Part shown: in pieces, positions 205 through 18,634 of the stretch
Position numbering within the stretch: position 1 is the first letter of the stretch
Layout: each line of letters begins with the position of its first letter
From: Ruminococcus sp.
GTDB lineage: Bacteria > Bacillota > Clostridia > Oscillospirales > Acutalibacteraceae
Reading direction: 5' to 3'
Assembly (NCBI GenBank): GCA_017404665.1
Contig: JAFRBX010000026.1
Location: 1 to 34,245, forward strand
DNA length: 34,245 nt
Program-made: the position numbers and the translations under genes
The notes under the pieces: generated by a model
What the model was told of the DNA's origin: nothing
The model's database searches: none
The model's input: only the letters and a program-made list of their open reading frames with translations

Positions 205-259
205 CGGGTGCGGGTGTCCCGCCCTTCACTATTCTCTATTATCTGTTATCTATATTCTA
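205..259 (-). repeat. Stop-codon-linked heptamer repeat element, copy A
   Basis: The element starts with the TAG stop of the L,D-transpeptidase gene and reads leftward. It consists of 7-bp units GAATATA, GATAACA, GATAATA, GAGAATA, then GTGAAGGGCGGG and a GCGGG-TGT-CCCGC hairpin (210-222). The core from the GTGA(A/G)GGGCGGG segment through the hairpin is almost identical to copy D at 18587-18634. It belongs to a five-copy family in this window, with the other copies at 10985, 11174, 18459 and 18587. Confidence 0.75.
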
Positions 260-1486
260 TTCCACCGTCACCGTCCTCGTGACCCTTGTCTTAAGGCTGA
301 AGCTGTCGGTCACGGTGTAGGTCAGATAGTATACGCCGGGCTTGTCGGTCAGCACCTCGCCCGCCACCTTGACGCGGTTCGTGATGTCGTTGCCGCAGAT
401 GTCGGCGGCGGTGACACCCATCTTCGCGTCAAAGTGATCTCCCTTTTTGAGTTCGGTGTCCTCTGTGCCCGAAAGCGTCGGCGATTTGCCCAGATAGGGG
501 TTGCCCTCGGTATCGTCGGTGGGGTCCCACTTTGCGTCAGTCGGAATCTTGACGGTCGCGGGCTTGCCCAGCGGGTCGGATTTTTTATCCGCGTCGATGA
601 CGTGAACGGGGGTATCGACGTCGCAATTCTTCATGATCCAGTAAACGTCGGACACCATCATGCGCACACAGCCCTGTGACGCGGGCTCGCCGAGCTTGTT
701 GAACTCGGCGGCGTCCAGCGCATCGTGCTTTGCCGTCTCATAGGGGATGCTGTGGAACAGGTACGGTCCCGAAAAGCCCGAGACGAACATGCCGTAGACG
801 TCGCCGTACAGCGGATGCCACGGTTCCTGGAAATAGATGGAAAAATCGCCCGTGATGGTGATATCGCCGCCGGAGGTGCCGCAGGAGCAGACCATTGCCC
901 TGACCGGCACGGTATAATCGCCGTTATCGTCCTTGGTATACACGGTGACGGTGTTGGTGCGGCGGTTGACGGTGATGCTGTAGATATCCCGCCTGCCCGT
1001 CGCGACGTTCTTCGCTAATATTTCTTCATTCGCCTTGATGGCGGTTGTGACCTCGTCGGGTCGCTCCGGCTCGGGGTTTTCGGCAACAGTGAACGAGCAC
1101 ACCGCCGTAAAATTCCTTGATGAAGCGGTGACCTCAGCCGTGCCGACAGCCAGCGCGTCGGCATGACCCGCCGCGTCCACGCGCACGATGTCGGGGTCGG
1201 AGGAAACGAACGAGACCTCCTTGATATCGACCGCGGAGGGCATGGTCAGCATGCAGATATCGCCGACCTTGACGTCCATCAGGACAGGCTCGCCGTCGCG
1301 CAGCTCCAGATTCACTGCGCCGTTGTCCTCGTGCTTGTTCTTCAGGTCGATGATACGCCAGACTGTCAGGGCAACAGCCGCCGCCAGCACGACGCAGAGC
1401 GCCGAGATTGCGATGATTCTTTTGGTGTTTCCTGTGCGATCATAACGGTATTTGGTGCCGTATCGCATAACTTTCATCGGTTTCAT
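257..1486 (-). CDS. L,D-transpeptidase (YkuD family), membrane-anchored, with Ig-like flanking domains
   Basis: The enzyme cross-links peptidoglycan stem peptides (3-3 links) or attaches proteins to them, acting outside the membrane. A short basic cytoplasmic tail is followed by one transmembrane helix (about residues 25-45), so the protein is a type II anchored enzyme. A bacterial Ig-like (Big_2-type) region spans about 55-130. The YkuD catalytic domain lies at about 150-310 and contains the upstream His (LFHSIP) and the signature SQGCVRM with the nucleophilic Cys. A C-terminal beta-sandwich resembling DUF5011/HYR Ig domains completes the protein. The start is taken at the ATG whose A is 8 nt downstream of the -10 box, which would give a leaderless mRNA. 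ATGs at 1492 and 1477 are alternatives, and none has a good Shine-Dalgarno site. The gene diverges from the methyltransferase gene, and its stop codon is the first triplet of repeat copy A. Confidence 0.87.
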   Translation of the reverse strand: MKPMKVMRYGTKYRYDRTGNTKRIIAISALCVVLAAAVALTVWRIIDLKNKHEDNGAVNLELRDGEPVLMDVKVGDICMLTMPSAVDIKEVSFVSSDPDIVRVDAAGHADALAVGTAEVTASSRNFTAVCSFTVAENPEPERPDEVTTAIKANEEILAKNVATGRRDIYSITVNRRTNTVTVYTKDDNGDYTVPVRAMVCSCGTSGGDITITGDFSIYFQEPWHPLYGDVYGMFVSGFSGPYLFHSIPYETAKHDALDAAEFNKLGEPASQGCVRMMVSDVYWIMKNCDVDTPVHVIDADKKSDPLGKPATVKIPTDAKWDPTDDTEGNPYLGKSPTLSGTEDTELKKGDHFDAKMGVTAADICGNDITNRVKVAGEVLTDKPGVYYLTYTVTDSFSLKTRVTRTVTVE

Positions 1487-1493
1487 GTCCATG

Positions 1494-1522
1494 ATTATAC
1501 ACGATTTCTCACAATATATCAA
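1494..1522 (-). promoter_or_regulatory. Sigma-A promoter of the L,D-transpeptidase gene (leaderless geometry)
   Basis: TTGATA (1522-1517), a 17-bp spacer and TATAAT (1499-1494). The expected transcription start falls at or next to the A of the ATG at 1486, leaving no room for a ribosome-binding site. Confidence 0.72.
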
Positions 1523-1561
1523 GTTACAGTTTTTTGTAAGCGAAATCACGCACACAAATGA

Positions 1562-1590
1562 TTGCAAAACCGACCCTGCCGTGCTACAAT
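1562..1590 (+). promoter_or_regulatory. Sigma-A promoter of the methyltransferase gene (leaderless geometry)
   Basis: TTGCAA (1562-1567), a 17-bp spacer and TACAAT (1585-1590). The start codon ATG at 1597 lies 7 nt after the -10 box, where transcription should begin. Confidence 0.7.
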
Positions 1591-1596
1591 ATCCCT

Positions 1597-2805
1597 ATGA
1601 AAGATTTTTGTATTTACGCGAAGAAATGCAATTCCTGCCAGCTGTGCAACTTAAGCTATGCGGAGCAATTGCACTATAAAGAGAATATCTGCCGCCGCTT
1701 TCCGGGCAAGCTGTGTCCTGTCGAGCCCATCACCCCCTCGCCCAAGACCGAGGGCTACCGCAATAAAGCCCAGTTCGTCTTCAGGCGTGAGGGCAAGCGC
1801 ATTGTCAGCGGTCTGTACAAATCGACGACGCGCAGCGTGATGCCCGCTGACAGATGCGCCGTTTGCTCGGACAACGCGAACGCGATCATAGCGGCGCTCT
1901 GCAAGCTTTTTCAAAGCTTCAAGGTCATGCCCTACGACCCCTACACGGGCAGAGGCTGGCTCAAAAGCGTCGTGATCCGCGAGGCTGCCGCCGCGGGAGA
2001 AAGCATGGCGGTCATCAACGGTGCGGACGCGGTCTTTCCCGCCAAGCGCACCTTTGCCGCCGCCCTGCAAAAGGCGTGTCCGACGCTCACCACCGCTGTG
2101 TGTACCGTTAATCGCGATCCAACAAAGCTGTTTACGGGCAAACAGAGCGAGATTCTGTTCGGGAAGGGCTTCATCACCGACGTGCTGTGCGGCGAACGCT
2201 TCATTCTCTCCCCCGCCTCGTTCTACCAGATCAACCATGACCAGACCGAACGGCTGTACGCGAAAGCCGTCGAATTGGCAGGACTCAGCGGCAGTGAAAT
2301 CGTCCTCGACGCCTACTGCGGCGTCGGCACGATCGGGATCATCGCTTCTCGCAGGGCAGGCTTTGTTCACGCGGTTGAGCTCAACCCCGCCGCCGTCGCC
2401 GACGCGAAGCGCAGCGCGAAGCTGAACGGCATCGAAAACATCCGCTTCACCGCCGCCGACAGCAGGGACTTCGCCAAAACGCTGGCGAAGAACGGCGCGC
2501 ATATCGACGCCGCCTTCATCGACCCGCCCCGCGCGGGCTGTACCGCGTCGTTCCTCAACGCGCTCTCGAAGCTGAAACCCGACCGCATCGTCTACATCTC
2601 CTGCAATCCCGAAACACAGGCGCGGGATATGCGGCTCCTCATAAGAATGGGCTACACGGCGCAGGTGTGCTGTCCTTTCGACATGTTCCCGCATACCAAT
2701 CATACAGAGAGTGTTGTCCTTTTACGTCGGAATAATAACGAGGACAGCGAAATATTCCAACCTAAAGAAACAACATCTGAAACCATCGTTTTATTATCTG
2801 ATTGA
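1597..2805 (+). CDS. 23S rRNA/tRNA uracil-5-methyltransferase (RlmD/TrmA/RumA family)
   Basis: This SAM-dependent enzyme makes 5-methyluridine in rRNA (U1939 or U747 type sites) or tRNA. About 402 residues, with the family order visible. An N-terminal Cys cluster (Cys residues in CIYAKKCNSCQLC plus a later NIC) fits the iron-sulphur site of RlmD-type enzymes. It is followed by the Rossmann SAM motif VLDAYCGVGTIGI, the DPPRAGC motif, and IVYISCNP with the catalytic Cys. HTNHTESVVLL marks the usual C-terminal end. No other Met lies between 1597 and the Cys cluster, and there is no Shine-Dalgarno sequence before 1597. About 25 residues follow the normal family end (from about 2730); they are encoded in AT-richer DNA that appears to belong to the neighbouring islet. 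The substrate (RlmD, RlmC or TrmA type) cannot be settled from the sequence alone. Confidence 0.9.
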   Translation: MKDFCIYAKKCNSCQLCNLSYAEQLHYKENICRRFPGKLCPVEPITPSPKTEGYRNKAQFVFRREGKRIVSGLYKSTTRSVMPADRCAVCSDNANAIIAALCKLFQSFKVMPYDPYTGRGWLKSVVIREAAAAGESMAVINGADAVFPAKRTFAAALQKACPTLTTAVCTVNRDPTKLFTGKQSEILFGKGFITDVLCGERFILSPASFYQINHDQTERLYAKAVELAGLSGSEIVLDAYCGVGTIGIIASRRAGFVHAVELNPAAVADAKRSAKLNGIENIRFTAADSRDFAKTLAKNGAHIDAAFIDPPRAGCTASFLNALSKLKPDRIVYISCNPETQARDMRLLIRMGYTAQVCCPFDMFPHTNHTESVVLLRRNNNEDSEIFQPKETTSETIVLLSD

Positions 2806-2853
2806 ATGTCAAATCTGCACCTTCTTTTTCTCATCGATTTGAAAGGAACTGTT

Positions 2854-4212
2854 ATGTCTTTCATTGTACGACTTTATCATCTGTCGCAAAAATCACGAAA
2901 GCTCATCATCAGCATCTGGTTGTCTTATCTTGCCGGTATAGGAGTGGAATATATTTCCGATGCATCCGACCTGAATGACCTGTTATTCCGGTTCATAGAT
3001 TTTTCTAAGCTGTCGGTCATTATTCTTTGGGTCGGTTTTATTCTCATCATAGCAGCATGTATATTCAGTCTATTGTTCAAGAAACTGTTCTATTCTCAGC
3101 TTCCGTCGAAGCAGTTCTATTCCTTAATGAACCGATATACCTGCCGAACTTTAGCCGAAGCGGAAACGTCCGGCTATGCATGGGGCTACAATAAAAACGT
3201 TGTAACACCTCAGAATCCGAGAGGATGGAACTCTGAAAGCGTTTTTATCGATCTTGCCGGCAGCGTGATTGATACAGAGTACGCTTTTCCCGTTAAAGAC
3301 AAGATTATGGACGGATATGACGCGGCTGCTTTCGATCGATATTACAAAAACGATCCGACAATCGCACTTATTCGTTCACGCGGCGACGACATGGAGCGTT
3401 TTGCGGTCAGCCACTATGAGCTGAACTCGAATAAGAAAAACAAAAGGTTGGAGATAAGGCTGCAAAAAACGCGCTGGTCACAGCTGCAGTTTTCTTGGGG
3501 CTACCTGAGATTATTAGACACCCGGAACAACCCGGTTTCACATCGTAATCTCAAAGAAATAGAAGCAACCTACGTCAGTGCGCTCAATCGCAGCAGACTG
3601 CTGATAAACAGCTTCTGCCTACATTTGATTCTTGTCGCAAAAAACGGAAACGCAGTTTTGTCACGAATCAGCAATGTCAAATCGAATGATTATCCGCAGA
3701 CATGGGCAGCAACAATAGGAGAACAGCTCGAAAAAGAGGATTTCTTTGATGAGGCGACAGGAAGGGCAAAGCATCATTTTGTTTTGAACTGGGTCAAGCG
3801 TGCGCTGAAAGAAGAATTTGATATTGATGAAAACGAATATAATGAATTCGGGCAGAGCGGGCAGAGCGAGCTTGAAACATATGTTGATATGGCGTCGTTA
3901 AGAGTATTAAGTCTTGATTTTGAAGGCGATATCTATAATTTTGCACTTACTTGTATTATCAAATTAAAAATCGACGCTTCTCAGCTGCTTTCCGTCAAAG
4001 GGATCAGGATCGACCGTAATGAGAACACCCTGCAGATTGAGGAATGCTCGCCCGCCGACGCCAGACGAATTCTGTTAAACTACCCGGGAAACATTCACGA
4101 CTATCATCCGTCCACCTATTTGAGACTGTTGATGTATCATTTGTATACGGAAGGCACTGCAGGTACATATAACGCGCTGATAAGGGCTGAAAAAAATAAA
4201 AAATTTCACTGA
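2854..4212 (+). CDS. Two-TM membrane protein with Nudix-like C-terminal domain, function unknown
   Basis: About 452 residues. Two hydrophobic helices (about 17-34 and 52-77) are followed by a soluble, probably cytoplasmic part. Residues about 255-380 read like a degenerate Nudix fold: a strand (LHLILVAKNG), then AATIGEQLEKED, then a helix ending KRALKEEFDI. The last segment aligns with the REuxEExGu half of a Nudix box, but with Ala for the first Glu and Asp for the Gly, so catalysis is doubtful. The start is set at the ATG with GAAAGGAAC just upstream; an ATG directly after the methyltransferase stop (2806) has no ribosome-binding site. Base composition is clearly AT-richer than the neighbours, with codons such as AAA, TTA and ATA common, which suggests horizontal acquisition. 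I do not recognise the family. Membrane-plus-Nudix designs are known among nucleotide-signalling and conflict systems, but that link is only an inference. Confidence 0.7.
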   Translation: MSFIVRLYHLSQKSRKLIISIWLSYLAGIGVEYISDASDLNDLLFRFIDFSKLSVIILWVGFILIIAACIFSLLFKKLFYSQLPSKQFYSLMNRYTCRTLAEAETSGYAWGYNKNVVTPQNPRGWNSESVFIDLAGSVIDTEYAFPVKDKIMDGYDAAAFDRYYKNDPTIALIRSRGDDMERFAVSHYELNSNKKNKRLEIRLQKTRWSQLQFSWGYLRLLDTRNNPVSHRNLKEIEATYVSALNRSRLLINSFCLHLILVAKNGNAVLSRISNVKSNDYPQTWAATIGEQLEKEDFFDEATGRAKHHFVLNWVKRALKEEFDIDENEYNEFGQSGQSELETYVDMASLRVLSLDFEGDIYNFALTCIIKLKIDASQLLSVKGIRIDRNENTLQIEECSPADARRILLNYPGNIHDYHPSTYLRLLMYHLYTEGTAGTYNALIRAEKNKKFH

Positions 4213-4390
4213 AGGCTGAACGACAAGGAGTTTCAGCATACAGATCACGGTCATCTGCATCGCAGAGAAAAAAGCTTCATCTATCGGCTCAGTCAGACCG
4301 CGGAAATAACGGTTCATTTTTCGTGCACCGCAGACTGAAAATTTCTCAGCACAAAAACCGTAATAAATTGCAAAAACGTCGCCCCGGGAA

Positions 4391-4419
4391 TTGTATTCCC
4401 GCGTCCGATATGTTATACT
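4391..4419 (+). promoter_or_regulatory. Sigma-A promoter of the RpiB-family gene
   Basis: TTGTAT (4391-4396), a 17-bp spacer and TATACT (4414-4419), 32 bp before the start codon. The 240 bp between the membrane-protein stop (4212) and the RpiB start otherwise hold no gene I can support, only a weak GCTGAA/TTCAGC hairpin right after the stop. Confidence 0.6.
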
Positions 4420-4451
4420 GTAACTACAATATTAAAAAGGGGGCTGATTCT

Positions 4452-4913
4452 ATGAAAATCGCTATGGCAAACGACCACGCCGGTACATCTATGAAGTATG
4501 AGATCAAGGCATATCTGGAAGCGCAGGGACACACGGTAACAGACTTCGGCACCTATGACGAAGGCTCCTGCGACCTTTCGGACTTTGTCCTTCCCGCCGC
4601 TTTGGCGGTCGCGAAGGGCGAGTGTGACAGAGGCATCTTTGTCGACGGAGTCGGCTACGGCAGCGCCATGATTGCCAACAAAGTGAGCGGCATCTACGCC
4701 TGCGTCTGTCAGGATCCTTTCTGCGCCCAACTGGCGCGCGAGCACAACAACTCCAACGTCCTGTGTCTGGGCGCGAAGATTATCGGCGGCATGATTGCGA
4801 TGGAGATCGTCAAAACCTTTATGAAAACGCAGCCGCTGACCGCCGATAAGTACGTGCGCCGTGTGAAAAAGGTACAAAAGATCAACGACGAGCACTGCGT
4901 GCCGGTCAAGTAA
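4452..4913 (+). CDS. RpiB/LacA/LacB-family sugar-phosphate isomerase with atypical active site
   Basis: Members interconvert aldose and ketose phosphates, for example ribose-5-P and ribulose-5-P. The 153 residues match the family length. ANDHAG (6-11) is the conserved N-terminal phosphate/substrate loop, ANKVSGI follows the active-site loop, and REHNNSNVLCLG carries the conserved His and Asn. The loop that in E. coli-type RpiB reads CGTGIG with the catalytic Cys reads DGVGYG here, so Asp65 stands at the Cys position and Val replaces the Thr. Mycobacterial RpiB also lacks the Cys and uses a Glu located elsewhere, so another general base is possible. The start is set by AAAAAGGGGG upstream of the ATG; the longer upstream open frame has no support. 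The gene appears monocistronic, with its own promoter and terminator. The true substrate is uncertain. Confidence 0.85.
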   Translation: MKIAMANDHAGTSMKYEIKAYLEAQGHTVTDFGTYDEGSCDLSDFVLPAALAVAKGECDRGIFVDGVGYGSAMIANKVSGIYACVCQDPFCAQLAREHNNSNVLCLGAKIIGGMIAMEIVKTFMKTQPLTADKYVRRVKKVQKINDEHCVPVK

Positions 4914-4966
4914 TCACCTAATCACTGTATGTAAATCTAATCTAAATTAACAGTAAGTAAAAAAAT

Positions 4967-4997
4967 ACGCGAGGTTTGCCGCCTCGCGTGTTCTTTT
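4967..4997. terminator. Bidirectional rho-independent terminator between convergent genes
   Basis: The stem ACGCGAGG / CCTCGCGT (4967-4974 / 4982-4989) is followed on the plus strand by a T-rich tract. On the minus strand it is followed by the T-run complementary to the A-run at 4958-4965. It serves both the RpiB gene and the beta-helix gene. Confidence 0.85.
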
Positions 4998-5016
4998 ATT
5001 CTTTACGGTTTACTGA

Positions 5017-7441: not shown

Positions 7442-9949
7442 ATGAGAAAAACCAGCAAATGTGTATCCGTCCTGCTGGCTGTGCTCACCGTCCTGACTGT
7501 GATGCTCTCCGGAATCGTTCCGGGAACACTCCGTACTCAGGCGGCAGGCTTCAACGGCTACAACTACGGCGGCGGGACGCTGTACGGATACCAAACCATC
7601 CTGGAGGCTTACGGCATCAAATATGAAGTATACATGAAGTGGCTTGACGACCACGACCGCGACAGTCCCAACCCTGATTATTATCTGGGCACCCGATATG
7701 TCGGTCAGGACCACCGCAACCCGCACGGCGACTGTCAGGGCGCATACGGCGCTTATGACTCTCCCGGCTCGGAGGGGATGAACTGTACCGGTTTTGTATG
7801 GCATGTACTGTATAAGTCCGCTGTCCATTCCGGCGCTTCCAGAGCACAGATCAACCGTCTCGGCGTGATGGGCGGCGTGCTCTCATCCTGGAGCACCTAC
7901 GGCGTTTATCGCATCTGGTTCAACTCGCTTGAGGACGCCTATGATTCCGGCGTGTTGGAAAAGGGCGACGTGATGTGGATCTATGGCTCCTCCGATAACC
8001 ATAACGCCATCTTTTACGGCGACAGTCCCGAGGATTTCATCTACTGGGATTCTGCAGGTGCGCGCAACCGCTACTGCGCGGTACATTCCATCGGCGCGTG
8101 TCGCGGACTATGGGTGTGCAAAGCGACCAAGCCGAAACAGATCGAGCTCAAGATCGACACGCCTGCCGCCGGCAACGGCGTCAAGTTCGGCACCAAATAC
8201 ATGATATTCGACAGCAAAGAGAAGGCGCAGGCATGCATCGATGATCCCGGCACCGACGCGAACTGGGAGGACCGCATCGGCACCATCGTGCTCGACAGCA
8301 GCGGTCACGGCTGCTTCCGCCAGCAGAGCGCTCCCTCAGCAAAGGAGCTGTGGAGCGGCGATACGCCGAACACCGCTCACAGCTATTTCAAATCCGGTGC
8401 CCGCAGAGTCGACTGTTCCAAGACCTACTACGCGGTACAGTGGAGCCACGGAGACGGCATCTGTGAGGATCATCAGATTCACGAGTTCAAGGACTCCGGC
8501 ATCCGTACACCGACCGGCTACCGCGTCTATCGCTTCTTCGCGCCGATCGTCGTGGACGATCCCGTCATCACCGGGACCAAGAGCATCAGCGACGGCGTGC
8601 GCATCACATGGGGTTCTGTCGGTCAGGGCGTGCGCTATCGCATCTACTATAAGAACAGCAAGGGCAGCTGGACGCGTATGGCCGAGACAACCTCCGCCTC
8701 CTATATCGATAAAGACGTCAAGAACGGCTCCACCTACACCTATACCGTCCGCTGTGTCGATGACTACGGCAGCTTTATCAGCGGTTTTGACGCAAACGGT
8801 TGGGAGCACACCTACAACTGTCTCGACACGCCTGAGATCACCTCCCTCGAAAGCACCCCAGAAGGCGTCAGGATCACATGGAACGCGGTTGAAAACACCA
8901 TCGACGACTCCGACGTTCAGTACCGCGTCTACTACAAAAACAGCAAGGGCGGCTGGACGCGCATGACCCAGACCGTCGATACCTCTTACGTCGACGACGC
9001 CGTCGGCGCGGGCAAGAGCTACACCTATACCGTTCGCTGTGTCGATCAGGCAGGCGACTTTGTCAGCAAATACGATACCGCGGGCAAGACCTGCACCTAT
9101 GCAGGGACTGCAGCTCCCGAGCTCATCGAAGCGACCGGTGAAGCGGCAGGCGTCCGCGTCAGATGGAACCCCGTCGAGGGCGTCGCCAAATACCGCGTCT
9201 ACTACAAAAACAGCATGGGCGAGTGGAAGAGTATGGGCGAAACCGCCGATACCGAGTTTCTCGACGAGGACGTCGCCCCCGGCAAAACCTACACCTATAC
9301 GGTGCGCTGTCTGAACAGCAAGGGCTATTCCGTCAGTCCCATGAACACAACCGGCATCCAAGGCGCTTTTATCGGCGTTGAAATCCCGCAGCTAATATCC
9401 GCAGAAAACGCTCCCGAGGGAATCCTGCTGAAATGGAAGCCTGTAGAGGGCGCGGTGCAATACCGCATCTATTATAAAAACAAAAACGGCAACTGGGTCA
9501 ATATGGCTCAGACAGCCGATACCGAGTATCTTGATGAAGACGTCAAGCTCAACCAGAGCTTTTGGTACACCGTCCGCTGTGTCAACAACATGGGGCGCTT
9601 CATGAGCGACTTTGACAAAACAGGTATGAAGGGCGCCTATACCGGCGTCGAGACGCCGCAGATCACGGAGTTTGAGAGCACTTCTGAGGGCGTCGTCATC
9701 CGCTGGAATGCTGTCGAAGGCGCCGCCGCGTACCGCGTGTTCTATAAAGGCAACAGCGGCTGGACACGCCTTGCCCTCGTCACAGGCACCGAGGTGCCGG
9801 ATACCGACGTCAAAGCCGGCAAGAGCTACACCTATACCGTCCGCTGCGTCGGCAGTAAAGAACAGTACATCAGCGACTATGACCACAGCGGCAGCAAGAT
9901 CCTGTATACCCCGCCCGCACCCACTACCGAACCCGAAGTTGTACAATAG
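7442..9949 (+). CDS. Secreted NlpC/P60-like cysteine peptidase with five fibronectin-III-like repeats
   Basis: About 835 residues. An N-terminal signal peptide ends near RTQAAG (residue 36). The catalytic module (about 37-230) has the arrangement of papain-like NlpC/P60 or CHAP enzymes: Cys115 in MNCTGFVWHVLY at the start of a helix and His187 in SSDNHNAIFYG, followed by a third polar position. Such enzymes usually cut peptidoglycan stem peptides or amides. Residues about 235-370 form a Cys-containing domain I cannot name. Five repeats of about 90 residues then follow, each with a core like YRVYYKNSKG.W and a YTYTVRCV strand; they are FN3-like and probably bind carbohydrate or act as spacers. 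The tail is Pro/Thr-rich, with no dockerin or LPXTG signal. ATG 7442 is preferred over GTG 7433 because GAGGAAG lies at a normal distance only from the ATG. The enzymatic call rests on motif spacing only. Confidence 0.8.
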   Translation: MRKTSKCVSVLLAVLTVLTVMLSGIVPGTLRTQAAGFNGYNYGGGTLYGYQTILEAYGIKYEVYMKWLDDHDRDSPNPDYYLGTRYVGQDHRNPHGDCQGAYGAYDSPGSEGMNCTGFVWHVLYKSAVHSGASRAQINRLGVMGGVLSSWSTYGVYRIWFNSLEDAYDSGVLEKGDVMWIYGSSDNHNAIFYGDSPEDFIYWDSAGARNRYCAVHSIGACRGLWVCKATKPKQIELKIDTPAAGNGVKFGTKYMIFDSKEKAQACIDDPGTDANWEDRIGTIVLDSSGHGCFRQQSAPSAKELWSGDTPNTAHSYFKSGARRVDCSKTYYAVQWSHGDGICEDHQIHEFKDSGIRTPTGYRVYRFFAPIVVDDPVITGTKSISDGVRITWGSVGQGVRYRIYYKNSKGSWTRMAETTSASYIDKDVKNGSTYTYTVRCVDDYGSFISGFDANGWEHTYNCLDTPEITSLESTPEGVRITWNAVENTIDDSDVQYRVYYKNSKGGWTRMTQTVDTSYVDDAVGAGKSYTYTVRCVDQAGDFVSKYDTAGKTCTYAGTAAPELIEATGEAAGVRVRWNPVEGVAKYRVYYKNSMGEWKSMGETADTEFLDEDVAPGKTYTYTVRCLNSKGYSVSPMNTTGIQGAFIGVEIPQLISAENAPEGILLKWKPVEGAVQYRIYYKNKNGNWVNMAQTADTEYLDEDVKLNQSFWYTVRCVNNMGRFMSDFDKTGMKGAYTGVETPQITEFESTSEGVVIRWNAVEGAAAYRVFYKGNSGWTRLALVTGTEVPDTDVKAGKSYTYTVRCVGSKEQYISDYDHSGSKILYTPPAPTTEPEVVQ
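8552..9907 (+). repeat. Five tandem FN3-like coding repeats (about 270 bp period)
   Basis: The sequence coding for YR(V/I)YYKN recurs near 8636, 8922, 9191, 9461 and 9731, giving a period of 270 bp except for one 286-bp step caused by a small insertion in repeat 2. The first 24 bases of the unit are identical in repeats 2 and 3, suggesting recent unequal crossing-over or conversion. Confidence 0.85.
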
Positions 9950-10213: not shown

Positions 10214-10987
10214 ATGAATTCAGATGTGTTTATCGGGTTGATGATACCCTTTATCGGCACCGCCTTGGGCGCGGCGGCGGTATTCTGCATGAAAAAAGAG
10301 CCCTCAGCGGGCACGTCGCGGGCGCTGACGGGCTTTGCGGGCGGTGTGATGATCGCGGCGTCCGTCTGGAGCCTGATCCTCCCCGCGATTGAACAGTCAC
10401 GCGCGTTGGGGCGGCTGGCGTTTCTGCCGGCGTTCTCCGGCTTCTGGGTGGGCGTTATCCTTCTCGCGTCACTCGACCGCCTGATCCCGAAGCTGCAAAA
10501 CGGGACGAAAAAGCATCAAAGCAAGCTCGCCCGCACGACGCTGATGGCGTCCGCGGTGACCCTGCATAACATCCCCGAAGGGATGGCGGTCGGCGTGGTT
10601 TACGCGGGATGGCTGACGGGGACCGACAGCGTTACCCTCAGCGGCGCATTTGCGCTGGCAACGGGGATCGCAATCCAGAATCTTCCCGAGGGAGCGATCA
10701 TCTCAATGCCGCTGCACGCGCAGGGCAAGAGCAGATGGAAAGCCTTTTTCTGCGGCGTGCTGTCCGGCGCGGTGGAGCCGCTGTTCGGCGCGCTGACCGT
10801 GCTGTGCGCGGCGGCAGTCGTACCCGCCATGCCCTACCTGCTGTCGTTCGCGGCGGGCGCAATGGTCTATGTCGTGGTACAGGAGCTGATCCCCGAGATG
10901 ACGCAGGGCAGCGATTCGCACCTCGGCGTGATGTGCTTCACGCTGGGCTTCACCCTGATGATGGCGCCCGACGTCGCGCTGGGATAG
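10214..10987 (+). CDS. ZIP-family divalent metal transporter (GufA/ZupT-like)
   Basis: An inner-membrane importer of zinc, iron or related divalent cations. The 257 residues, about eight hydrophobic helices and a charged loop after helix 3 (about 94-108) fit the family. The two metal-site signatures are present: HNIPEG (118-123) in helix 4 and IQNLPEG (154-160) in helix 5. In the second, Gln stands where E. coli ZupT has His, as in the GufA subgroup. A PEMTQG motif near residue 227 ends the pore region. The gene is preceded by AAAAGGAA and appears monocistronic. Its TAG stop is the first triplet of repeat copy B. Metal specificity is not evident. Confidence 0.88.
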   Translation: MNSDVFIGLMIPFIGTALGAAAVFCMKKEPSAGTSRALTGFAGGVMIAASVWSLILPAIEQSRALGRLAFLPAFSGFWVGVILLASLDRLIPKLQNGTKKHQSKLARTTLMASAVTLHNIPEGMAVGVVYAGWLTGTDSVTLSGAFALATGIAIQNLPEGAIISMPLHAQGKSRWKAFFCGVLSGAVEPLFGALTVLCAAAVVPAMPYLLSFAAGAMVYVVVQELIPEMTQGSDSHLGVMCFTLGFTLMMAPDVALG

Positions 10988-11043
10988 AAAGCAGAGAACA
11001 GAGAATAGATAACAGATAATAGTGAAGGGAGGGCTGTGCCCTT
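10985..11043 (+). repeat. Stop-codon-linked heptamer repeat element, copy B
   Basis: The element starts with the TAG stop of the ZIP gene and continues with units GAGAACA, GAGAATA, GATAACA, GATAATA, then GTGAAGGGAGGGCTGTGCCC. The last part is a GGGC-TGT-GCCC hairpin that replaces the GCGGG-TGT-CCCGC hairpin of copies A and D. It faces copy E across a terminator. Confidence 0.75.
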
Positions 11044-11090
11044 ACTCATTTGTTGTAAATATCTTTGCTTGCTAAAGCTTTAGAAAAACA

Positions 11091-11134
11091 AATAACGTGC
11101 ACCGCTCAAAAAAGAGTCGTGCACGTTATTTTAT
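11091..11134. terminator. Bidirectional terminator between the ZIP and AsnB-like genes
   Basis: A 12-bp perfect stem AATAACGTGCAC / GTGCACGTTATT (11091-11102 / 11119-11130) with a 16-nt loop. T-rich tracts follow on both strands. Confidence 0.85.
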
Positions 11135-11173
11135 ATGCCGTTATATCAATCTAAAACGCGTCAGCGTTTCCAA

Positions 11174-11207
11174 CAATTGTTATCTTTTATCTGATATCTA
11201 CTATCTA
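11174..11207 (-). repeat. Stop-codon-linked heptamer repeat element, copy E
   Basis: Reading leftward from the TAG stop of the AsnB-like gene, the units are GATAGTA, GATATCA, GATAAAA, GATAACA, ending in AATTG. It lacks the GC hairpin of the other copies and is the most diverged one. Confidence 0.6.
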
Positions 11208-12740
11208 TTCTCCGAATTTACAGTCGTACCAAAGCAGGAACACATAGACAGCGTAAACGCGGTTCCACAGAACAGCCTCACCGCCTGTAAAGCGCTCCCA
11301 CATATCCTTGATCACGTCCTGATCAAAGAATTTTCGTGACGTCGCCCCGAAGAGCTTTTCTTTCACAGCTGCGTTGTAACGTTCGTCTGAGAGCCACTTT
11401 CGCACCGGCACAGGGAAACCGACCTTCTTGCGAAAGGCGGATTCATACGGCAGAACGCTGCTCGCCGCTTGGCGGAACACATACTTGTTCTGTTCCTCGC
11501 GGAACTGATATTCAGAGGGGATACGGCTCGCGACCCGAAACAGCCTGAGATCGGAGAACGGCGTATGCAGCTCGATCCCGCAGGCGGTAGAGGTGCGGTC
11601 GGTGTTCAGATAGATATCGCCCTCAAGCCAGAAGGAGATATCCATCGTCAGCTTGGAGTCGAGCTGATCCTGCTTTTTCGCTTCGTCCCACATCTTTCGA
11701 AGCGGATCGGCGGGATCAACGGCGCTGTCGAAATCGCGCATCAGGCTCTTAACCACATCCTGCGACATGATATGCGAACAGGTCAGGTAGACCCAGTCGC
11801 TCGGGATGACACGCTTATGAGCGTTGTAGCCGCCGAAGAACTCATCGATGCCCTCGCCCGAGTAGACGACGTCGGCATGCTCCTTGACCGCCTGACAGCC
11901 CAGCGAGAACGCTACGGCGGAGGCGTCGCCCAAAGGCTGCCCCAGCTTATCGATGACCTCGGGGATGCGGTCAAAATACTCCTCTGGGGTGATGGTCTTA
12001 ACGCGGAAGCCCTTACCCAGCACGGCGGCAGTATCGCGCGCCAGATGCGCCTCGTTGAAGTCCTCCTCGGCATAGCCGACGGTGTTCGCGCACTGCGCGT
12101 CGGAGGCGGCGAGCAGATAGGACGAGTCCACGCCGCCCGACAGGAACGATTCCTTGTACGGCAGCTCAGCGTCCTCACGCTCCTCGTTCAATATCTCAGT
12201 GACAACAGCCTTGATCTCGTCGGCGAATTCATCGATGGATTTATCCTTCTCGGGCGTGAACAGCGGCTTGAAGTAGCAGTGTACATCTGCCTTTATGCCG
12301 TCCCACTTGAGATAGTGACCGGGCATGAGCTTGTATACGCCCTGATAAAAGGTCTCCTCGCCGATGGGGTAGCCGTAGAACAGATACTGCTGCAGCATGC
12401 GCTTGTTCAGCTTCTTCTCAAAGCGGCTGTCGGATACGATCGCGTCGATATCGCCCGAGCACAGCAATTCGCCGCCGACAAGAGCATAGAACATCTGCTT
12501 CTGACCGACCTGATCGCGGAATACATAGAGCTTCTGCGCCGCTTCATCGAATACTGCGAACGCGAAAGCGCCGTACAGGTGATCGACGATCCCTGTACCC
12601 CACTTTTTGAAGCCCTCTGACAAAATCTGTTTCTCCCGCTCCTCGCGGGAAAGCGGCAGCGCGATACCGAGCTCATCGCATAAACGCTTATAGTTGCGGA
12701 TATATCCGCTGAAATATTTGATCTGAACCGTGTTTTCCAT
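11205..12740 (-). CDS. Asparagine synthetase-like (AsnB superfamily) protein lacking the glutaminase Cys
   Basis: AsnB enzymes activate a carboxylate with ATP and transfer ammonia released from Gln by an N-terminal Cys2. Here the 511-residue protein starts MENTVQIKYF and lacks roughly the first 60 residues of the family, including the MCG start with its nucleophile. The rest of the glutaminase fold (GAFAFAVFDE, then LYVFRDQVGQKQMFYA) and the synthetase domain are present. The synthetase domain has the PP-loop SGGVDSS (201-207) and SGEGIDEFFGGY (294-305). The upstream DNA is a promoter and ribosome-binding site (GGAGGGATGAT), so this is not a frameshifted full-length gene. Loss of the Cys is also seen in beta-lactam and carbapenam synthetases, and in ammonia-dependent amide formers. 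No biosynthetic cluster surrounds it, so the substrate is unknown. The TAG stop begins repeat copy E. Confidence 0.85.
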   Translation of the reverse strand: MENTVQIKYFSGYIRNYKRLCDELGIALPLSREEREKQILSEGFKKWGTGIVDHLYGAFAFAVFDEAAQKLYVFRDQVGQKQMFYALVGGELLCSGDIDAIVSDSRFEKKLNKRMLQQYLFYGYPIGEETFYQGVYKLMPGHYLKWDGIKADVHCYFKPLFTPEKDKSIDEFADEIKAVVTEILNEEREDAELPYKESFLSGGVDSSYLLAASDAQCANTVGYAEEDFNEAHLARDTAAVLGKGFRVKTITPEEYFDRIPEVIDKLGQPLGDASAVAFSLGCQAVKEHADVVYSGEGIDEFFGGYNAHKRVIPSDWVYLTCSHIMSQDVVKSLMRDFDSAVDPADPLRKMWDEAKKQDQLDSKLTMDISFWLEGDIYLNTDRTSTACGIELHTPFSDLRLFRVASRIPSEYQFREEQNKYVFRQAASSVLPYESAFRKKVGFPVPVRKWLSDERYNAAVKEKLFGATSRKFFDQDVIKDMWERFTGGEAVLWNRVYAVYVFLLWYDCKFGE

Positions 12741-12770
12741 ATCATCCCTCCGTGTCGGATTTTGTCAAAA

Positions 12771-12798: not shown

Positions 12799-12801
12799 TA
12801 C

Positions 12802-12830: not shown

Positions 12831-12862
12831 GGTGTCATACATTTCCCGAAAGGAGCAAGCAT

Positions 12863-13294: not shown

Positions 13295-13308
13295 TTGACG
13301 CGAGCAGA

Positions 13309-13336
13309 CGGGCACAGGATGACTGTGTCCGTTTTT
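13309..13336 (+). terminator. Rho-independent terminator of the PPC gene
   Basis: The stem CGGGCACAG / CTGTGTCCG (13309-13317 / 13323-13331) is followed by TTTTT. The further stretch to 13470 contains a GGCACGCGTGCC palindrome but no gene I can support. Confidence 0.82.
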
Positions 13337-13470
13337 GATCACAAAGAAAGCGCTGTGTATGATCGGAAAGAGAAAGGCACGCGTGCCCGGAAAGGGAACG
13401 GCACACGCGCCTCCGTCTTTTTGCACGGATTTGTTCATGCTTTGTCCATTTTTTATTCACGAAATGTCCG

Positions 13471-13499
13471 TAGACAGAAAAGACATTTTTTGCTATAAT
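13471..13499 (+). promoter_or_regulatory. Promoter of the lectin-dockerin gene
   Basis: TAGACA (13471-13476), a 17-bp spacer and TATAAT (13494-13499), leaving a leader of about 75 nt. Confidence 0.65.
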
Positions 13500-13580
13500 T
13501 TTTATCATTAATAAGTATGCTTCAAAAAAGATTTGCAATTATCGCATCTGACATCAGTCCGATGATACAAGAGGTAATTC

Positions 13581-15872: not shown

Positions 15873-15897
15873 CACACACCGAACGCTGTGCTAATAT
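15869..15897 (+). promoter_or_regulatory. Promoter of the FMN-riboswitch/ribU transcript, overlapping the upstream stop codon
   Basis: TTGACA (15869-15874) includes the TGA stop of the lectin-dockerin gene. A 17-bp spacer leads to TAATAT (15892-15897). A GTCAGG-GAAA-CCTGAC hairpin with a GNRA loop (15903-15918) would sit near the RNA 5' end. Confidence 0.6.
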
Positions 15898-15930
15898 AAT
15901 AGCGTCAGGGAAACCTGACAAACAGAATAC

Positions 15931-16071
15931 ATCTTCGGGGTAGGGTGAGATTCCCGACCGGCAGTATAGTCTGCGAGCGCTGTCAAAGGCGCATGATACG
16001 GTGCGATTCCGTAACCGACGGTAACATACGCGTTATGATCATACGCGTATGAAGTCCGGATGAGAGAAGAT
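15931..16071 (+). promoter_or_regulatory. FMN riboswitch (RFN element)
   Basis: The conserved aptamer segments are in order: TCGGGGTAGGGTGAGATTCC, CGACCGGCAGTATAGTC, GATTCCGTAACCGACGGTA and AGTCCGGATGAGAGAAGAT. The closing stem is ATCTTC (15931-15936) with GAAGAT (16066-16071). One variable arm is long, with CATACGCG pairing with CGCGTATG (about 16025-16051). FMN binding is expected to switch off riboflavin uptake by favouring the terminator at 16088. Confidence 0.95.
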
Positions 16072-16087
16072 ATGATTGCATCAGCAT

Positions 16088-16124
16088 GCTCCGTAGGTAC
16101 CCGAACCTGCGGAGCCTTTGTTTT
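16088..16124 (+). terminator. Riboswitch-controlled transcription terminator
   Basis: An 11-bp stem, GCTCCGTAGGT with ACCTGCGGAGC (16088-16098 / 16105-16115), is followed by CTTTGTTTT. It lies between the FMN aptamer and the ribU start, as the expression platform. Confidence 0.88.
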
Positions 16125-16169
16125 GCAAAATCCAAATCATGTCTTGCGGAAAACCGCAAAGGAGAAATG

Positions 16170-16844
16170 ATGACAAACACAAAAAACAACAACCGGCTCA
16201 AATCTCTGCTGTCAATAGCGATGCTGACCGCGCTGGCTGTCGCCGCGGATATGTTCCTGCGGATACCGGGGATCGGCGGCTTCCTCACCTATGAGCCGAA
16301 GGACGTGATCCTCACCATCGGCGCCTTCATCTTCGGTCCCATTGCCGGACTGATCATGTCGCTGCTGGTGTGCCTGATCGAGATGATCACCGTCAGCACC
16401 ACGGGACCCATCGGTCTGCTGATGAACTTCCTCGCGTCGGGCGTATTCGTCGGCGTAAGCTCCGTGATCTACTGGCGCAGAAAAACTCTGCCCAGAGCTA
16501 TCATCGGTCTGATTGCGGGCTCGCTGTCGATGCTTCTGATCATGCTGCTGTGGAATTACATCATGACGCCGCTCTATATGGGCGTTCCGCGTGAAGCGGT
16601 ATTGGAGCTGTTCGTGCCGCTGCTGATCCCATTCAACCTTCTGAAGGCAGGGCTGAACTCCGCACTGATCCTCTTCCTCTACAAAGGCGTTGTCACTGCG
16701 CTGCGCAAATCGCGCCTGATACCCGCCAGAGAGAGCAACGACGGAGAGAAAAGGAAAGCAAACACGATCCTTATGGTCAGTATCTCAGCGGTGCTGGTCA
16801 TTACACTGATACTGGTGATGCTGATCTTCGCCGGAAAGCTGTAA
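16170..16844 (+). CDS. ribU: Riboflavin ECF transporter substrate-binding subunit RibU
   Basis: The membrane S-component that captures riboflavin for import with a shared ECF energising module, which is not encoded here. About 224 residues with six hydrophobic helices. The first helix motif (ALAVAADMFLRIPG) and FLTYEPKDVILTIGAFIFGP match the RibU family, including the conserved Glu-Pro-Lys-Asp segment after helix 1. PIGLLMNFLASG and NLLKAGLNS near the C-terminal helices also fit. The C-terminal part from about 190 has an extra charged linker and one more hydrophobic helix. ATG 16170 is preferred over ATG 16167 because AAAGGAG is 5 nt from the former and only 2 nt from the latter. The FMN riboswitch directly upstream strongly supports the substrate call. 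Confidence 0.93.
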   Translation: MTNTKNNNRLKSLLSIAMLTALAVAADMFLRIPGIGGFLTYEPKDVILTIGAFIFGPIAGLIMSLLVCLIEMITVSTTGPIGLLMNFLASGVFVGVSSVIYWRRKTLPRAIIGLIAGSLSMLLIMLLWNYIMTPLYMGVPREAVLELFVPLLIPFNLLKAGLNSALILFLYKGVVTALRKSRLIPARESNDGEKRKANTILMVSISAVLVITLILVMLIFAGKL

Positions 16845-16855
16845 AGAAATGTCAC

Positions 16856-16889
16856 AAGGCTGTCGTTTTCGAAAATGACAGCCTTTTTC
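16856..16889 (+). terminator. Terminator of ribU
   Basis: A near-perfect 15-bp stem (16856-16870 / 16871-16885; core AGGCTGTC/GACAGCCT) with TTTTT overlapping its end. Confidence 0.88.
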
Positions 16890-16950
16890 ATCGTCTTTCA
16901 TCTGTCTGCGTAAATCTGTATTAATAATGCTTTTAAAATGATTGATGAGC

Positions 16951-17250
16951 AGGGCGTCTACTCGGCTCCCTCTGACGAGGGAGCTGTCACGGCATTTTGC
17001 CGTGACTGAGGGAGAGATAACGCAGCGTGATAAAAACATTGAAAAACCTGACTCGATCCCTTACGCAATGATACTGCCTCTTCGGCTTGAGTCAGAATTC
17101 GGTTAGTAACTGTCATGCTGCGTTATCTCTCCCCCGCGATTCGAACAACTGCCCCTTTCAAAGTATCTACTCGCTTGCCCCCTCATCAGAGGGGCTGAAT
17201 GTGTAGCGTACATATCCACGTGACATACATGTCCGTCAGAGGGGGCGCTG
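16951..17250. repeat. Composite palindromic (MITE-like) repeat region without genes
   Basis: About 300 bp with nested inverted repeats and no plausible gene. GCTCCCTC-TGAC-GAGGGAGC lies at 16965-16984, and GTCACGGCA-TTT-TGCCGTGAC at 16986-17006. A 17-bp perfect inverted repeat (GGGAGAGATAACGCAGC) is at 17010-17026 / 17117-17133 around a 90-bp core. GCCCCCTCATCAGAGGGGC is at 17177-17195, with a related segment to 17250. TCTACTCG followed by a CCCTC-rich hairpin occurs at both ends (16958 and 17166), suggesting two related units. Similar GAGGGAG-type repeats are frequent in Ruminococcaceae genomes. The flanks (16890-16950 and 17251-17343) are AT-richer and hold nothing I can identify. Confidence 0.7.
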
Positions 17251-17343
17251 ATAAAGCGATGTTCCTTTCATTATCACGTTCTAATACCGATGTTGTAATT
17301 CAACAAATGAATTAGAGTCGCCTGTCCAATTATCCGCTCCCCC

Positions 17344-17372
17344 TTGCACATTTCTGCACTTTATACTATAAT
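17344..17372 (+). promoter_or_regulatory. Promoter of the DUF5662/HD operon
   Basis: TTGCAC (17344-17349), a 17-bp spacer and TATAAT (17367-17372), 23 bp before the start codon. Confidence 0.72.
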
Positions 17373-17395
17373 AGGAACCGGAAAAGAGGGATTCG

Positions 17396-17998
17396 ATGAG
17401 CAAGGCGCTGAAGCATTTCAAAACCATCACCCGCCACCGCCATCAGGTGATCAAAAATTGCTTTCGGGCGGGCATCCCGTGGCAGGGTCTCAAACACGAT
17501 CTGTCGAAGTATTCGTGGACAGAGTTCAGCGAGGGGGCGCGCTACTGGCAGGGCACGCGCAGCCCCAACGACCGCGAGCGCGAGATCAAGGGCTACAGCG
17601 AGGCGTGGATGCACCACAAGGGCCGCAACCGCCACCACTTCGAATACTGGACAGACTACTCCCCCGTCGATCGCAGGATCAAGCCCGTCGAGATGCCCGT
17701 GCGCTATGTCGTGGAAATGTTCTGCGACCGCGTCGCGGCGTGCAAGATCTATCAGGGCAAGGCGTATACCGACAAAAGCCCGCTGGAATACTTCATCAGG
17801 GGCAAGGAGCGCAAGGGCCGCGTTTTCCGCGGCGAGATGGTACATCCCGCGACCTGCGACCTGATCGAATCCTACCTCACGTATCTTGCCGAAAACGGAG
17901 AGCAAAAGGCGTTCGCTTACCTCAAAACAGTCGTCAAGCAGGATCGGAAGGACAGAAAAGCGCGAAAGAAGGAATGGAAAAATGCTGACAAAAACTGA
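17396..17998 (+). CDS. DUF5662 family protein
   Basis: 200 residues that match the clostridial DUF5662 family, of unknown function. Recognisable blocks are KHFKTITRHRHQVIKNCF, GLKHDLSKYSWTEF, WMHHKGRNRHHFEYW and MPVRYVVEMFCDRVAACKIY. The His/Asp-rich blocks (KHDLSK, HHKGRNRHH) look like a metal site in an all-helical, HD-like fold, which is an inference. The C-terminal 20 residues are very basic (KQDRKDRKARKKEWK). The start follows AAAAGAGGGATTCG. The last 17 bases overlap the next gene, so the two are probably translationally coupled. Confidence 0.85.
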   Translation: MSKALKHFKTITRHRHQVIKNCFRAGIPWQGLKHDLSKYSWTEFSEGARYWQGTRSPNDREREIKGYSEAWMHHKGRNRHHFEYWTDYSPVDRRIKPVEMPVRYVVEMFCDRVAACKIYQGKAYTDKSPLEYFIRGKERKGRVFRGEMVHPATCDLIESYLTYLAENGEQKAFAYLKTVVKQDRKDRKARKKEWKNADKN

Positions 17999-18461
17999 TG
18001 ACGCCGAAGGGATGAAGCGTTCCATGGACGTGCAGCGCGTCGCGCTGAAGATGAAGCAGCATCACCGCGGCGATATGGAAAAGACCCAGCATTTTGTGCG
18101 CGTCTACACACTGGCGAAATCCATCGGCGAGCTGGAAAACCTGAACGTAGAGGAACAGTACAGCTTAGAGCTCGCGGCAGTCGTCCACAACGTCGAGGGC
18201 GACCGCGTCCCCGCGGTGCGCGATATCCTGCTCGGATGCGATATCGCCGAGGATATTGCGATGAAGGTCTGTCACATGGTCGAGAATATCGAAAACTACG
18301 AGCACATCAGAACACTTGAGCACCAGATCCTGATCGAGGCAAAGCTGATCGTCGACTTCAAGGAGCACAACACCCCCGAAAAGGAGATCATCCGCAAGGC
18401 GGAGGATATCTTCATCACCAACACGGGAAAGCTGTTCTTGAAAAGGGCATTCCGTTTATAG
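17982..18461 (+). CDS. HD-domain-like protein with HN in place of the HD motif
   Basis: 159 residues. The order MEKTQHFVRVYTLAKSIG (first His), then LELAAVVHNVEGD at the usual place of the HD dyad, then a helical segment with CHMVENIENYEH, resembles small clostridial HD-family metal phosphohydrolases. The Asp of the HD dyad is Asn here (codon AAC instead of GAC). That Asp is a metal ligand in active members, so the protein may be inactive, regulatory, or use another ligand. The start is the ATG after AAGAAGGAATGG, overlapping the DUF5662 gene by 17 bp; a longer upstream frame is only the shadow of that gene. The TAG stop is the first triplet of repeat copy C. Confidence 0.75.
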   Translation: MLTKTDDAEGMKRSMDVQRVALKMKQHHRGDMEKTQHFVRVYTLAKSIGELENLNVEEQYSLELAAVVHNVEGDRVPAVRDILLGCDIAEDIAMKVCHMVENIENYEHIRTLEHQILIEAKLIVDFKEHNTPEKEIIRKAEDIFITNTGKLFLKRAFRL

Positions 18462-18521
18462 AGAACAGATAACAGATAAAAGATAATAGATAATAGTTAC
18501 GGGAAAGCCTGACGGCTTTTT
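18459..18521 (+). repeat. Stop-codon-linked heptamer repeat element, copy C
   Basis: The TAG stop of the HD-like gene is followed by AGAACA and units GATAACA, GATAAAA, GATAATA, GATAATA, then GTTACGGG. An AAAGCC-TGAC-GGCTTT hairpin with a short T-run follows, resembling a small terminator. This copy has the longest clean run of 7-bp units. Confidence 0.78.
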
Positions 18522-18549
18522 GATTGAGATAACAACTGCGAAAAAATGA

Positions 18550-18577
18550 GCTCGCGACTCTTTATAGAGTTGCGAGC
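18550..18577. terminator. Terminator between the HD-like gene and the glycosyltransferase gene
   Basis: GCTCGCGACTC pairs with GAGTTGCGAGC (18550-18560 / 18567-18577). On the minus strand it is followed by TCATTTTTT, so it mainly ends the glycosyltransferase operon. Confidence 0.82.
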
Positions 18578-18586
18578 ATTATTATT

Positions 18587-18634
18587 CGGGTGCGGGTGTC
18601 CCGCCCCTCACTGTTATCTATTATCTGTTCTCTA
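18587..18634 (-). repeat. Stop-codon-linked heptamer repeat element, copy D
   Basis: Reading leftward from the TAG stop of the glycosyltransferase gene are AGAACA, GATAATA, GATAACA, then GTGAGGGGCGGG and the GCGGG-TGT-CCCGC hairpin (18592-18604). The hairpin and its flanks (18587-18605) are identical to copy A. Confidence 0.78.

Follow-up and report, generated by a model that had tools for sequence, protein, structure and literature searches.

Why should short tandem repeats begin at the stop codons of unrelated genes? The question is raised by a 34,245-nucleotide stretch of the genome of a Ruminococcus sp. (GenBank assembly GCA_017404665.1, contig JAFRBX010000026.1; here, the window), in which an earlier note, made from the letters alone, reported five stretches of 7-bp units close to GATAAYA, each starting at the TAG stop codon of a neighboring gene. 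All five stretches are present (Table 1), and the window contains 19 matches to GATAAYAGATAAYAG at ≤3 mismatches, relative to 1.57 expected (the maximum of 100 shuffles was 5). We propose that each dispersed repeat would be one arm of a short mobile element lodged in an intergenic gap and that these elements are probably nonautonomous derivatives, similar to miniature inverted-repeat transposable elements (MITEs), of a mobile element whose sole gene encodes a 23S-rRNA-IVP/S23 four-helix-bundle protein (referred to here as IVP).

Heptad arrays form the arms of two-armed elements

Across the genome, GATAACAGATAATAG occurred at ≤2 mismatches at 309 places, relative to 149 when the pattern was reversed. 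When the first 412 kb was scanned for arrays, 71 were detected, relative to 1.0 per replicate in Markov controls, and the typical layout paired a plus array with a minus array lying at most 500 bp after it. When 1.05 Mb was scanned under a somewhat looser rule, 137 arrays were obtained; 51 head-on pairs accounted for all but 35, which were singles and in many cases weak. Other neighbor arrangements within 500 bp were rare (three "--" and one "-+"). Given this predominance of head-on pairs, the unit is a two-armed element. Since most of the sampled contigs had been chosen for containing hits (0.78 Mb with 48 pairs, versus 0.27 Mb with 3 pairs on contigs taken by number), copy number per genome was not extrapolated.

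These results change how the five stretches are to be read. The arrays are real and nonrandom, as first described, but their unit had been misread: the proper frame is AG-N5, which in this genome takes the forms AGATAAY and AGAGAAY. Nor are the five independent of each other, as positions 10985-11212 and 18454-18634 each make up a whole two-armed element, and 205-259 is a lone arm, for which no partner was detected in positions 1-204 at the array-scan thresholds.

The 51 paired elements are 60 to 488 bp long (median, 138 bp), with 3 to 11 heptad units per arm. The heptads in this genome are AGATAAC, AGATAAT, AGAGAAC, AGAGAAT, and AGATAAA. From the outside inward, heptads give way to a short linker (in many cases GTGAAGG or GTTATGG), then to a hairpin and a variable middle, after which the mirror image follows with another hairpin; some longer elements additionally contain a terminator-like hairpin. 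The hairpins are of about five kinds, and their cores concentrate in the elements: GGGAAACGC was found 23 times inside elements and 4 times elsewhere, CGAGCAAAGCGAGA 8 times inside and 0 elsewhere, and CGGGTGCGGG 23 times inside and 12 elsewhere. Both arms of an element are mostly of one heptad type. The arms of C65:13645-13783 (contig C65) are nevertheless of two types, GATAAYA and GTGAATA, and the right arm of C2:7142-7287 mixes the same two, which implies that arms can change independently.

The same arms bracket an IVP gene

The IVP family (PF05635, 23S_rRNA_IVP; TIGR02436, "four helix bundle") has a single match in this genome, which is 95.9% complete, and that match lies inside one of the elements. 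At C5:4074-4561, the IVP gene is enclosed by arms and hairpins of the usual type, whereas the window's elements carry no gene. The elements are short, bounded by terminal inverted repeats, and have ends in common with a coding element of the same genome. Target-site duplications of 2 to 9 bp were not more frequent than with swapped flanks, save for one 6- to 7-bp case; the classical signature of a transposase is therefore lacking and the exact ends are uncertain, so we call the elements MITE-like rather than MITEs.

Within the genus, 27 of 40 genomes had an IVP match. Of 30 loci analyzed, 24 were readable by motif; period-7 arrays (≥16 of 21) with varied heptads flanked the gene on both sides in 15 of the 24, a count that had no separate control, and one more locus ran off its contig. 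In a wider scan of named genomes, we analyzed the best 80 of 571 IVP loci by similarity to the query, using 79 after one with a short flank (L287) was dropped. Head-on AG arrays at a spacing of 7 occurred on both sides in 50 of these 79 loci versus 0 of 145 displaced controls. A spacing of 8 was seen in 9 loci, one of which (L235) appeared at both spacings and was unconvincing at 8, and spacings of 5, 6, and 9 to 12 were seen in none of the 79. Plain lag-7 self-similarity was detected in 28 of 79 loci versus 1 of 143 controls. Of 79 arrays, 75 contained AG and 15 contained CT. According to the record titles, the 50 bracketed loci include Ruminococcus, Thiohalocapsa, Treponema, Planctomycetaceae, Kiritimatiellae, Bacteroides, Flavobacterium, Fibrobacter, Pyrinomonadaceae, SAR324, and Nomurabacteria, among others. 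The 8-nt (AG-N6) brackets at L243, L264, L273, L274, L291, L292, L294, and L300 come, for example, from candidate-phyla bacteria and a Methanophagales archaeon record.

Plasmid loci gave a similar picture. The set comprised 13 of 32 IVP-matching records, equivalent to 13 of the 16 with ≥80% coverage, and 12 of the 13 were cyanobacterial. Ten had brackets at a spacing of 7 and 3 at a spacing of 8 (one at both), such that 12 had either and 1 had neither. The gene lay between cas6 and cas4 on two plasmids and between two ribonucleotide reductase genes on another, all at a spacing of 7; between cas10 and cmr3, the spacing was 8. Relatives rich in repeats exist elsewhere: in the genomes behind these IVP loci, AGTGRNNAGTGRNNAGTGR exceeded its reversed control in 7 of 10 (e.g., 67+52 versus 1+0 in G064) but not in G069, G070, or G072, and the control pattern itself matches some AGTG arrays. 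The Pyrinomonadaceae genome G069 had 302+309 overlapping matches to AGTGRNNAGTGRNNAGTGR, many of them in head-on pairs ~50 to 160 bp apart, relative to 489+492 for the control.

An rRNA setting was not evident at these loci: Rfam scans of 20 IVP loci revealed no rRNA, and conserved 23S motifs had no match in 110 IVP loci, the motifs being approximate and used without a positive control. No IVP relative was found in phage records at an E value of 1e-5 with one query. Solved relatives of IVP are 2rld and 2gsc (five chains each).

Given that the genome's one IVP gene sits inside the same arms and hairpins as the gene-less elements and that AG-anchored arms made of other heptads flank IVP genes in many phyla, the elements are probably MITE-like derivatives of an IVP element. 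IVP, as a putative distant relative of Avd, would recognize the arms and drive or assist movement, with the periodic AG serving as its fixed contact; that IVP is the driving component is a tentative suggestion. The heptad filler varies while the period and the AG stay. Quite possibly, a hitherto unrecognized, nearly pan-bacterial class of mobile elements exists whose sole gene encodes IVP/S23 and whose ends are head-on AG-N5 (sometimes AG-N6) arrays, with the AG fixed and the filler free for each element. Such elements would move unlike known transposases, conceivably by templated addition of terminal repeats, and would leave dozens of gene-less copies; the heptamers of Xanthomonas, cyanobacteria, Beggiatoaceae, and others would then be their ends.

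Elements appear mobile and amplified in this lineage

An exact 16-mer had 39 copies in this genome, 3 in its congener G017, and 1 in G023, and was absent from the other 33 of 35 congeners and from 23 members of the order. Period-7 segments occurred at 6.6 per 100 kb in this genome, relative to 7.6 in G012 and 11.2 in G017, although the lag-7 counts in congeners rest on 13 to 80 kb per genome. At other lags from 5 to 16, our genome had 0 to 0.6 segments per 100 kb, except for 3.0 at 14, a multiple of 7. Strict-threshold lag-7 arrays were absent from the sampled stretches of six other congeners, G059 and G023 among them. These two nevertheless have heptad arrays at other places, and the lag-14 count in G023 was 5.6 segments per 100 kb.

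The earlier note had suggested comparing orthologous loci with and without an element. A search of 0.86 Mb of G059 recovered both flanks of 17 of the 51 sites. The flanks were closer together than in our genome at 14 of these sites and as far apart or farther at 3, one of which (C17:34754) holds another heptad element in G059. Three sites were nearly empty, with flank spacings in G059 and our genome of 13 and 138 bp (C3:22752), 14 and 155 bp (C44:15151), and 35 and 196 bp (C5:76040); the others were filled by different spacer sequence. The sites in our genome include what we take, from the protein sequences, to be the conserved pairs rapZ|whiA, rpmA|obgE, and smc|ftsY. In the rapZ|whiA, rpmA|obgE, and protease|uppP-like gaps, the elements of G012 and G017 follow the same design but are built of different heptads and, for the most part, different hairpins, and one such element in the protease|uppP-like gap is common to both genomes. 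This pattern suggests that elements have entered these gaps repeatedly or that their arms have been replaced there. Other short repeats, of the GTACGGGCGGCC... and GTAGGGG... types, are also found in some of the same gaps (L156 and L194 in G023, L182 in G012, and L185 in G017). On contig C44, the end of rapZ and the first bases past its stop form the AAAGCC-TGAC-GGCTTT hairpin core of other elements, adjoining element C44:15151-15281, which may be chance or a trace of hairpin acquisition.

Taken together, the elements look mobile and amplified in a lineage-specific manner. The notion of a mobile palindrome family, which the earlier note had offered as one of two options, is supported by the lineage-specific amplification, by some nearly empty orthologous sites, and by the two-armed palindromic architecture.

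The link to stop codons is probably a by-product

The elements occupy intergenic gaps, after a stop codon and ahead of the following ribosome-binding site. The 51 pairs have 102 outer ends, of which 56 lie toward a stop and 45 toward a start, with no gene on that side for the remaining 1. On the scale of the genome, stop codons are thus not what marks the sites. The preference for 3' ends that had been proposed along with mobility did not hold up either: 38 pairs lie between codirectional, 9 between convergent, and 3 between divergent genes, with 1 unresolved, and the 38/9/3 split did not differ significantly from the 461/82/87 of 630 background gaps (P = 0.22; for divergent gaps alone, 3 of 50 versus 87 of 630, P = 0.13). 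On the stop side, arms start a median of 5 to 6 bp past the stop, and some overlap it (range, -32 to 335), whereas at least 11 bp are left between the element and a start. Gene calls were made with a custom script, which missed at least one gene in the window.

Of the 54 genes whose 3' ends lie near an arm (47 near paired and 7 near lone arms), the stop was TAA in 31, TGA in 12, and TAG in 11, relative to 406/326/112 in the background (TAG versus the rest, P = 0.15). The adjacent TAG is in phase with the array at all five places in the window, the AG of the TAG being an AG of the array. This is unusual for the genome, in which 7 of the 11 TAG stops near arms are in phase, five of them in the window. 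The proposal that the element supplies the stop codon itself applies to a minority of genes, with 23 of the 54 neighboring stops lying inside or against an array. At C64:51064, heptads supply the final codons of the left gene, whose orthologues in G012 and G017 have other heptads at their ends. The shared sense orientation of the five stretches, which had been judged improbable by chance, needs no separate explanation: because the arms point inward, a gene ending at the outer edge is always in the sense orientation of that arm.

Stop-codon targeting was accordingly rejected as the organizing rule. The link to stop codons would instead be a by-product of short operon gaps and of the unit itself. 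Insertions abut stops because gaps in compact operons are short, and since the common unit reads TAA or TAG inward, an element that lands slightly within the end of a gene provides a new stop.

Weighing the explanations

Several observations weigh against derivation from a mobile IVP element. There is one IVP gene relative to at least 51 elements, and no transposition was observed. At the site in G059 that corresponds to C5:4074-4561, a decayed IVP end with a hairpin is accompanied by other heptads; arms can thus change while the site stays, which is unexplained. Among the 79 foreign loci, 21 had neither a spacing-7 nor a spacing-8 bracket at the thresholds used, 6 had the wrong orientation at a spacing of 7, and hairpin modules are not evident at many; within the genus, three loci (L213, L214, and L222) had period-7 arrays on neither side. 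The failure to find target-site duplications belongs here too, as does the lack of association across 40 genomes between IVP and genes for reverse transcriptase (odds ratio, 0.94) or Y1 transposase (odds ratio, 1.07). Our confidence was slightly lowered because only 3 of the 17 G059 sites were nearly empty; the remainder carry other spacer sequence.

With respect to a trans-acting partner, reverse transcriptase and Y1 transposase were the obvious candidates, and both were set aside for want of co-occurrence with IVP.

The hairpins recall REPINs and bacterial interspersed mosaic elements (BIMEs), in which two inverted repetitive extragenic palindrome (REP) hairpins would be moved in trans by a Y1 transposase of the REP-associated (RAYT) type, the heptads being incidental flanks. 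BIMEs combine two different palindromes in opposite orientation, and our elements do likewise: with hairpins classed by custom text patterns, the two belonged to one class in 1 of 51 elements, relative to ~10 expected. The genome also has one full and one partial Y1 transposase match. However, the heptad arms are the constant part, whereas the hairpins vary and are not evident at many IVP loci; GTAG or CGTC was found near the hairpin foot in just 3 of 51 elements, and Y1 transposases do not track IVP. We regard such a family as rather unlikely. An RNA module at mRNA 3' ends or between cistrons, in which stops and a stabilizing or processing hairpin are kept by selection with little or no mobility, would fit the position of 38 of 51 elements between codirectional genes, the capacity of 47 of 51 to form at least 12 base pairs between arms on folding, and the excision by RNase III of intervening sequences (IVSs) encoding the same protein family, as described in the available part of PMC4990558. 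Yet an element's own arms pair less well than swapped arms (-26.4 versus -30.0 kcal/mol), the opposite of what selection for a stem predicts, and we rejected such selection on this ground. The weak pairing can be read as counterselection of perfect palindromes, although it is not uniform: T at unit position 3 is anticorrelated between arms (r = -0.64; 49 pairs), whereas position 6 gives correlations of 0.12 (C), 0.26 (T), and -0.28 (A), so that the effect is clear at position 3 alone. Patchy presence among congeners, the nearly empty sites, and ends that face starts almost as often as stops also argue against an RNA module, which we consider unlikely.

Retro-copying would account for the arms by telomerase-like repeated copying of a short template, the element RNA being copied by a host reverse transcriptase. 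AG-anchored 7- and 8-nt units are reminiscent of telomeric repeats, and the two arms mostly have one heptad type in common. The genome has one reverse transcriptase gene (L072, contig C4, positions 8483-9520; its single RVT_1 match), which appears retron-like by eye (YCDD, QGAPTSP). Avd is the partner of diversity-generating reverse transcriptases, and two of three IVPs tried, both foreign, weakly match the Avd models NF033474 and PF22296; for NF033474, the E values were 1e-6 and 5e-8 and the scores 29.0 and 33.1 bits, below the curated cutoff of 80. By contrast, the genome's own IVP matches no Avd model, RVT_1 is absent from 17 of the 27 IVP-bearing genomes of the genus, and the arms at C65:13645 differ in heptad type, making retro-copying distinctly unlikely in our estimate. 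Ordinary tandem-repeat slippage in spacers, with no mobile element at all, agrees with the variable unit number of arms and with the heptamer excess known in many bacteria (PMC4692102, available part), but leaves the head-on pairing, the shared hairpin modules, and the IVP bracket unexplained, and the pairing statistics make it very improbable.

Derivation from an IVP element offers one testable cause for the overrepresentation of heptamers between bacterial genes, and the same cause addresses what the S23/IVP proteins ("four helix bundle"), familiar from intervening sequences of rRNA, do in other locations. If it is correct, a tiny element without a recognizable transposase has spread through many phyla and sits in core operons, and its fixed AG period with free filler would be unusual among the ends of mobile elements. 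Annotators should be aware that gene ends, and seeming regulatory motifs near stops or starts, can be element termini.

Features of the window

The coordinates of the arms and hairpins are collected in Table 1, in which the names of the neighboring genes are the labels of the earlier note, assigned without domain searches. An Rfam search of the window matched only a flavin mononucleotide (FMN) riboswitch (RF00050; positions 15927-16075; 92.9 bits), just upstream of an open reading frame at 16086-16844, and no rRNA. A second short repeat, around GGCAATCCC (ACAAAG), lies at positions 145-168 and recurs next to or within several elements, including beside C5:76040 and inside C60:53233; this may be a further family of small repeats.

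Table 1. Arms and hairpins of the heptad elements in the window
Feature	Position	Strand
Element 1, left arm: AG-N5 heptads, starting at the TAG stop of the upstream gene	10985..11028	+
Element 1, left hairpin: AGGGC..GCCCT type	11027..11043	+
Element 1, internal terminator-like hairpin (ACGTGCAC..GTCGTGCACGT), resembling one in several other long elements	11091..11131	.
Element 1, right hairpin: AAACGC..GCGTTT type	11153..11169	-
Element 1, right arm: heptads in inverted orientation; shares bases with the TAG stop of the convergent AsnB-like gene	11174..11212	-
Element 2, left arm: heptads; shares bases with the TAG stop of the gene upstream	18454..18496	+
Element 2, left hairpin: AAAGCC..GGCTTT type	18501..18522	+
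Element 2, internal terminator-like hairpin (GCTCGCGAC..GTTGCGAGC)	18550..18577	.
Element 2, right hairpin (CGGGTGCGGGTGTCCCGCCC)	18587..18607	-
Element 2, right arm: inverted heptads reaching the TAG stop of the convergent glycosyltransferase gene	18611..18634	-
Lone half-element, hairpin (CGGGTGCGGGTGTCCCGCCC)	205..224	-
Lone half-element, arm of heptads reaching the TAG stop of the L,D-transpeptidase-like gene	223..259	-

Comparison with known systems

REPINs and BIMEs resemble the elements described here in being short, intergenic, and lineage specific and in consisting of two inverted, unlike palindromes. To our knowledge, they have no heptad arms, and their GTAG/CGTC tags were seen in just the 3 of 51 elements mentioned above. 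The likeness to Avd of diversity-generating retroelements (NF033474, PF22296) is limited to weak matches of two of three IVPs at scores below the cutoffs, with none for the genome's own IVP.

The earlier note knew of no described element of this kind. This statement has to be narrowed: head-on heptamer pairs near stops are already in print for Xanthomonas (PMC4692102), as are heptamers in an element with an S23 gene (PMC4990558). In the literature searched, some of it available in part, largely without subscription papers and without preprints, a link between head-on heptamer pairs and IVP genes was not found. The available parts of PMC5524665 and PMC5041132 have no bearing on heptamer elements.

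The TAACTGA repeats of Beggiatoaceae, Cyanobacteria, and Bacteroidetes are intergenic 7-mer arrays with stops in all frames that, in the main genome, lie mostly toward start codons; the authors speculate that what moves may be a protein that binds the repeats (PMC4679880, available part). TAACTGA is one base off TAACAGA, a unit found here, but lacks the AG anchor, and the part of that article available does not describe head-on pairing.

The GGGAATC/GGGGAYT heptamers of Xanthomonas and Nostoc are similar in arrangement. In the available part of PMC4692102, 70 and 75 convergent head-on pairs are reported in two Xanthomonas genomes; the heptamers occur on the sense strand near stops and antisense near starts, some overlap the stop codon, and they are underrepresented between divergent genes. 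They are interpreted there as quadruplex-forming simple repeats that are "generally" not associated with mobile elements. The Ruminococcus elements are similarly intergenic, head-on, and near both stops and starts; they differ in their unit, and neither an IVP gene nor a hairpin pair is described in that portion of the article.

The IVS in the 23S rRNA of Coxiella is similar in content. According to the part of PMC4990558 available, it has inverted terminal repeats, is excised by RNase III, and carries tandem GACAGAT heptamers before its S23p gene, in numbers that vary between strains. In contrast to that rRNA-borne IVS, the window and the 20 scanned IVP loci lack rRNA, and the amplified noncoding copies found here are not described for Coxiella in that text. 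The IVS and the IVP elements have in common an S23/IVP gene, inverted ends, and heptamers. A gene of this family between inverted terminal repeats is seen in one copy in our genome and at 50 of the 79 foreign loci, whereas the elements of the window have no gene.

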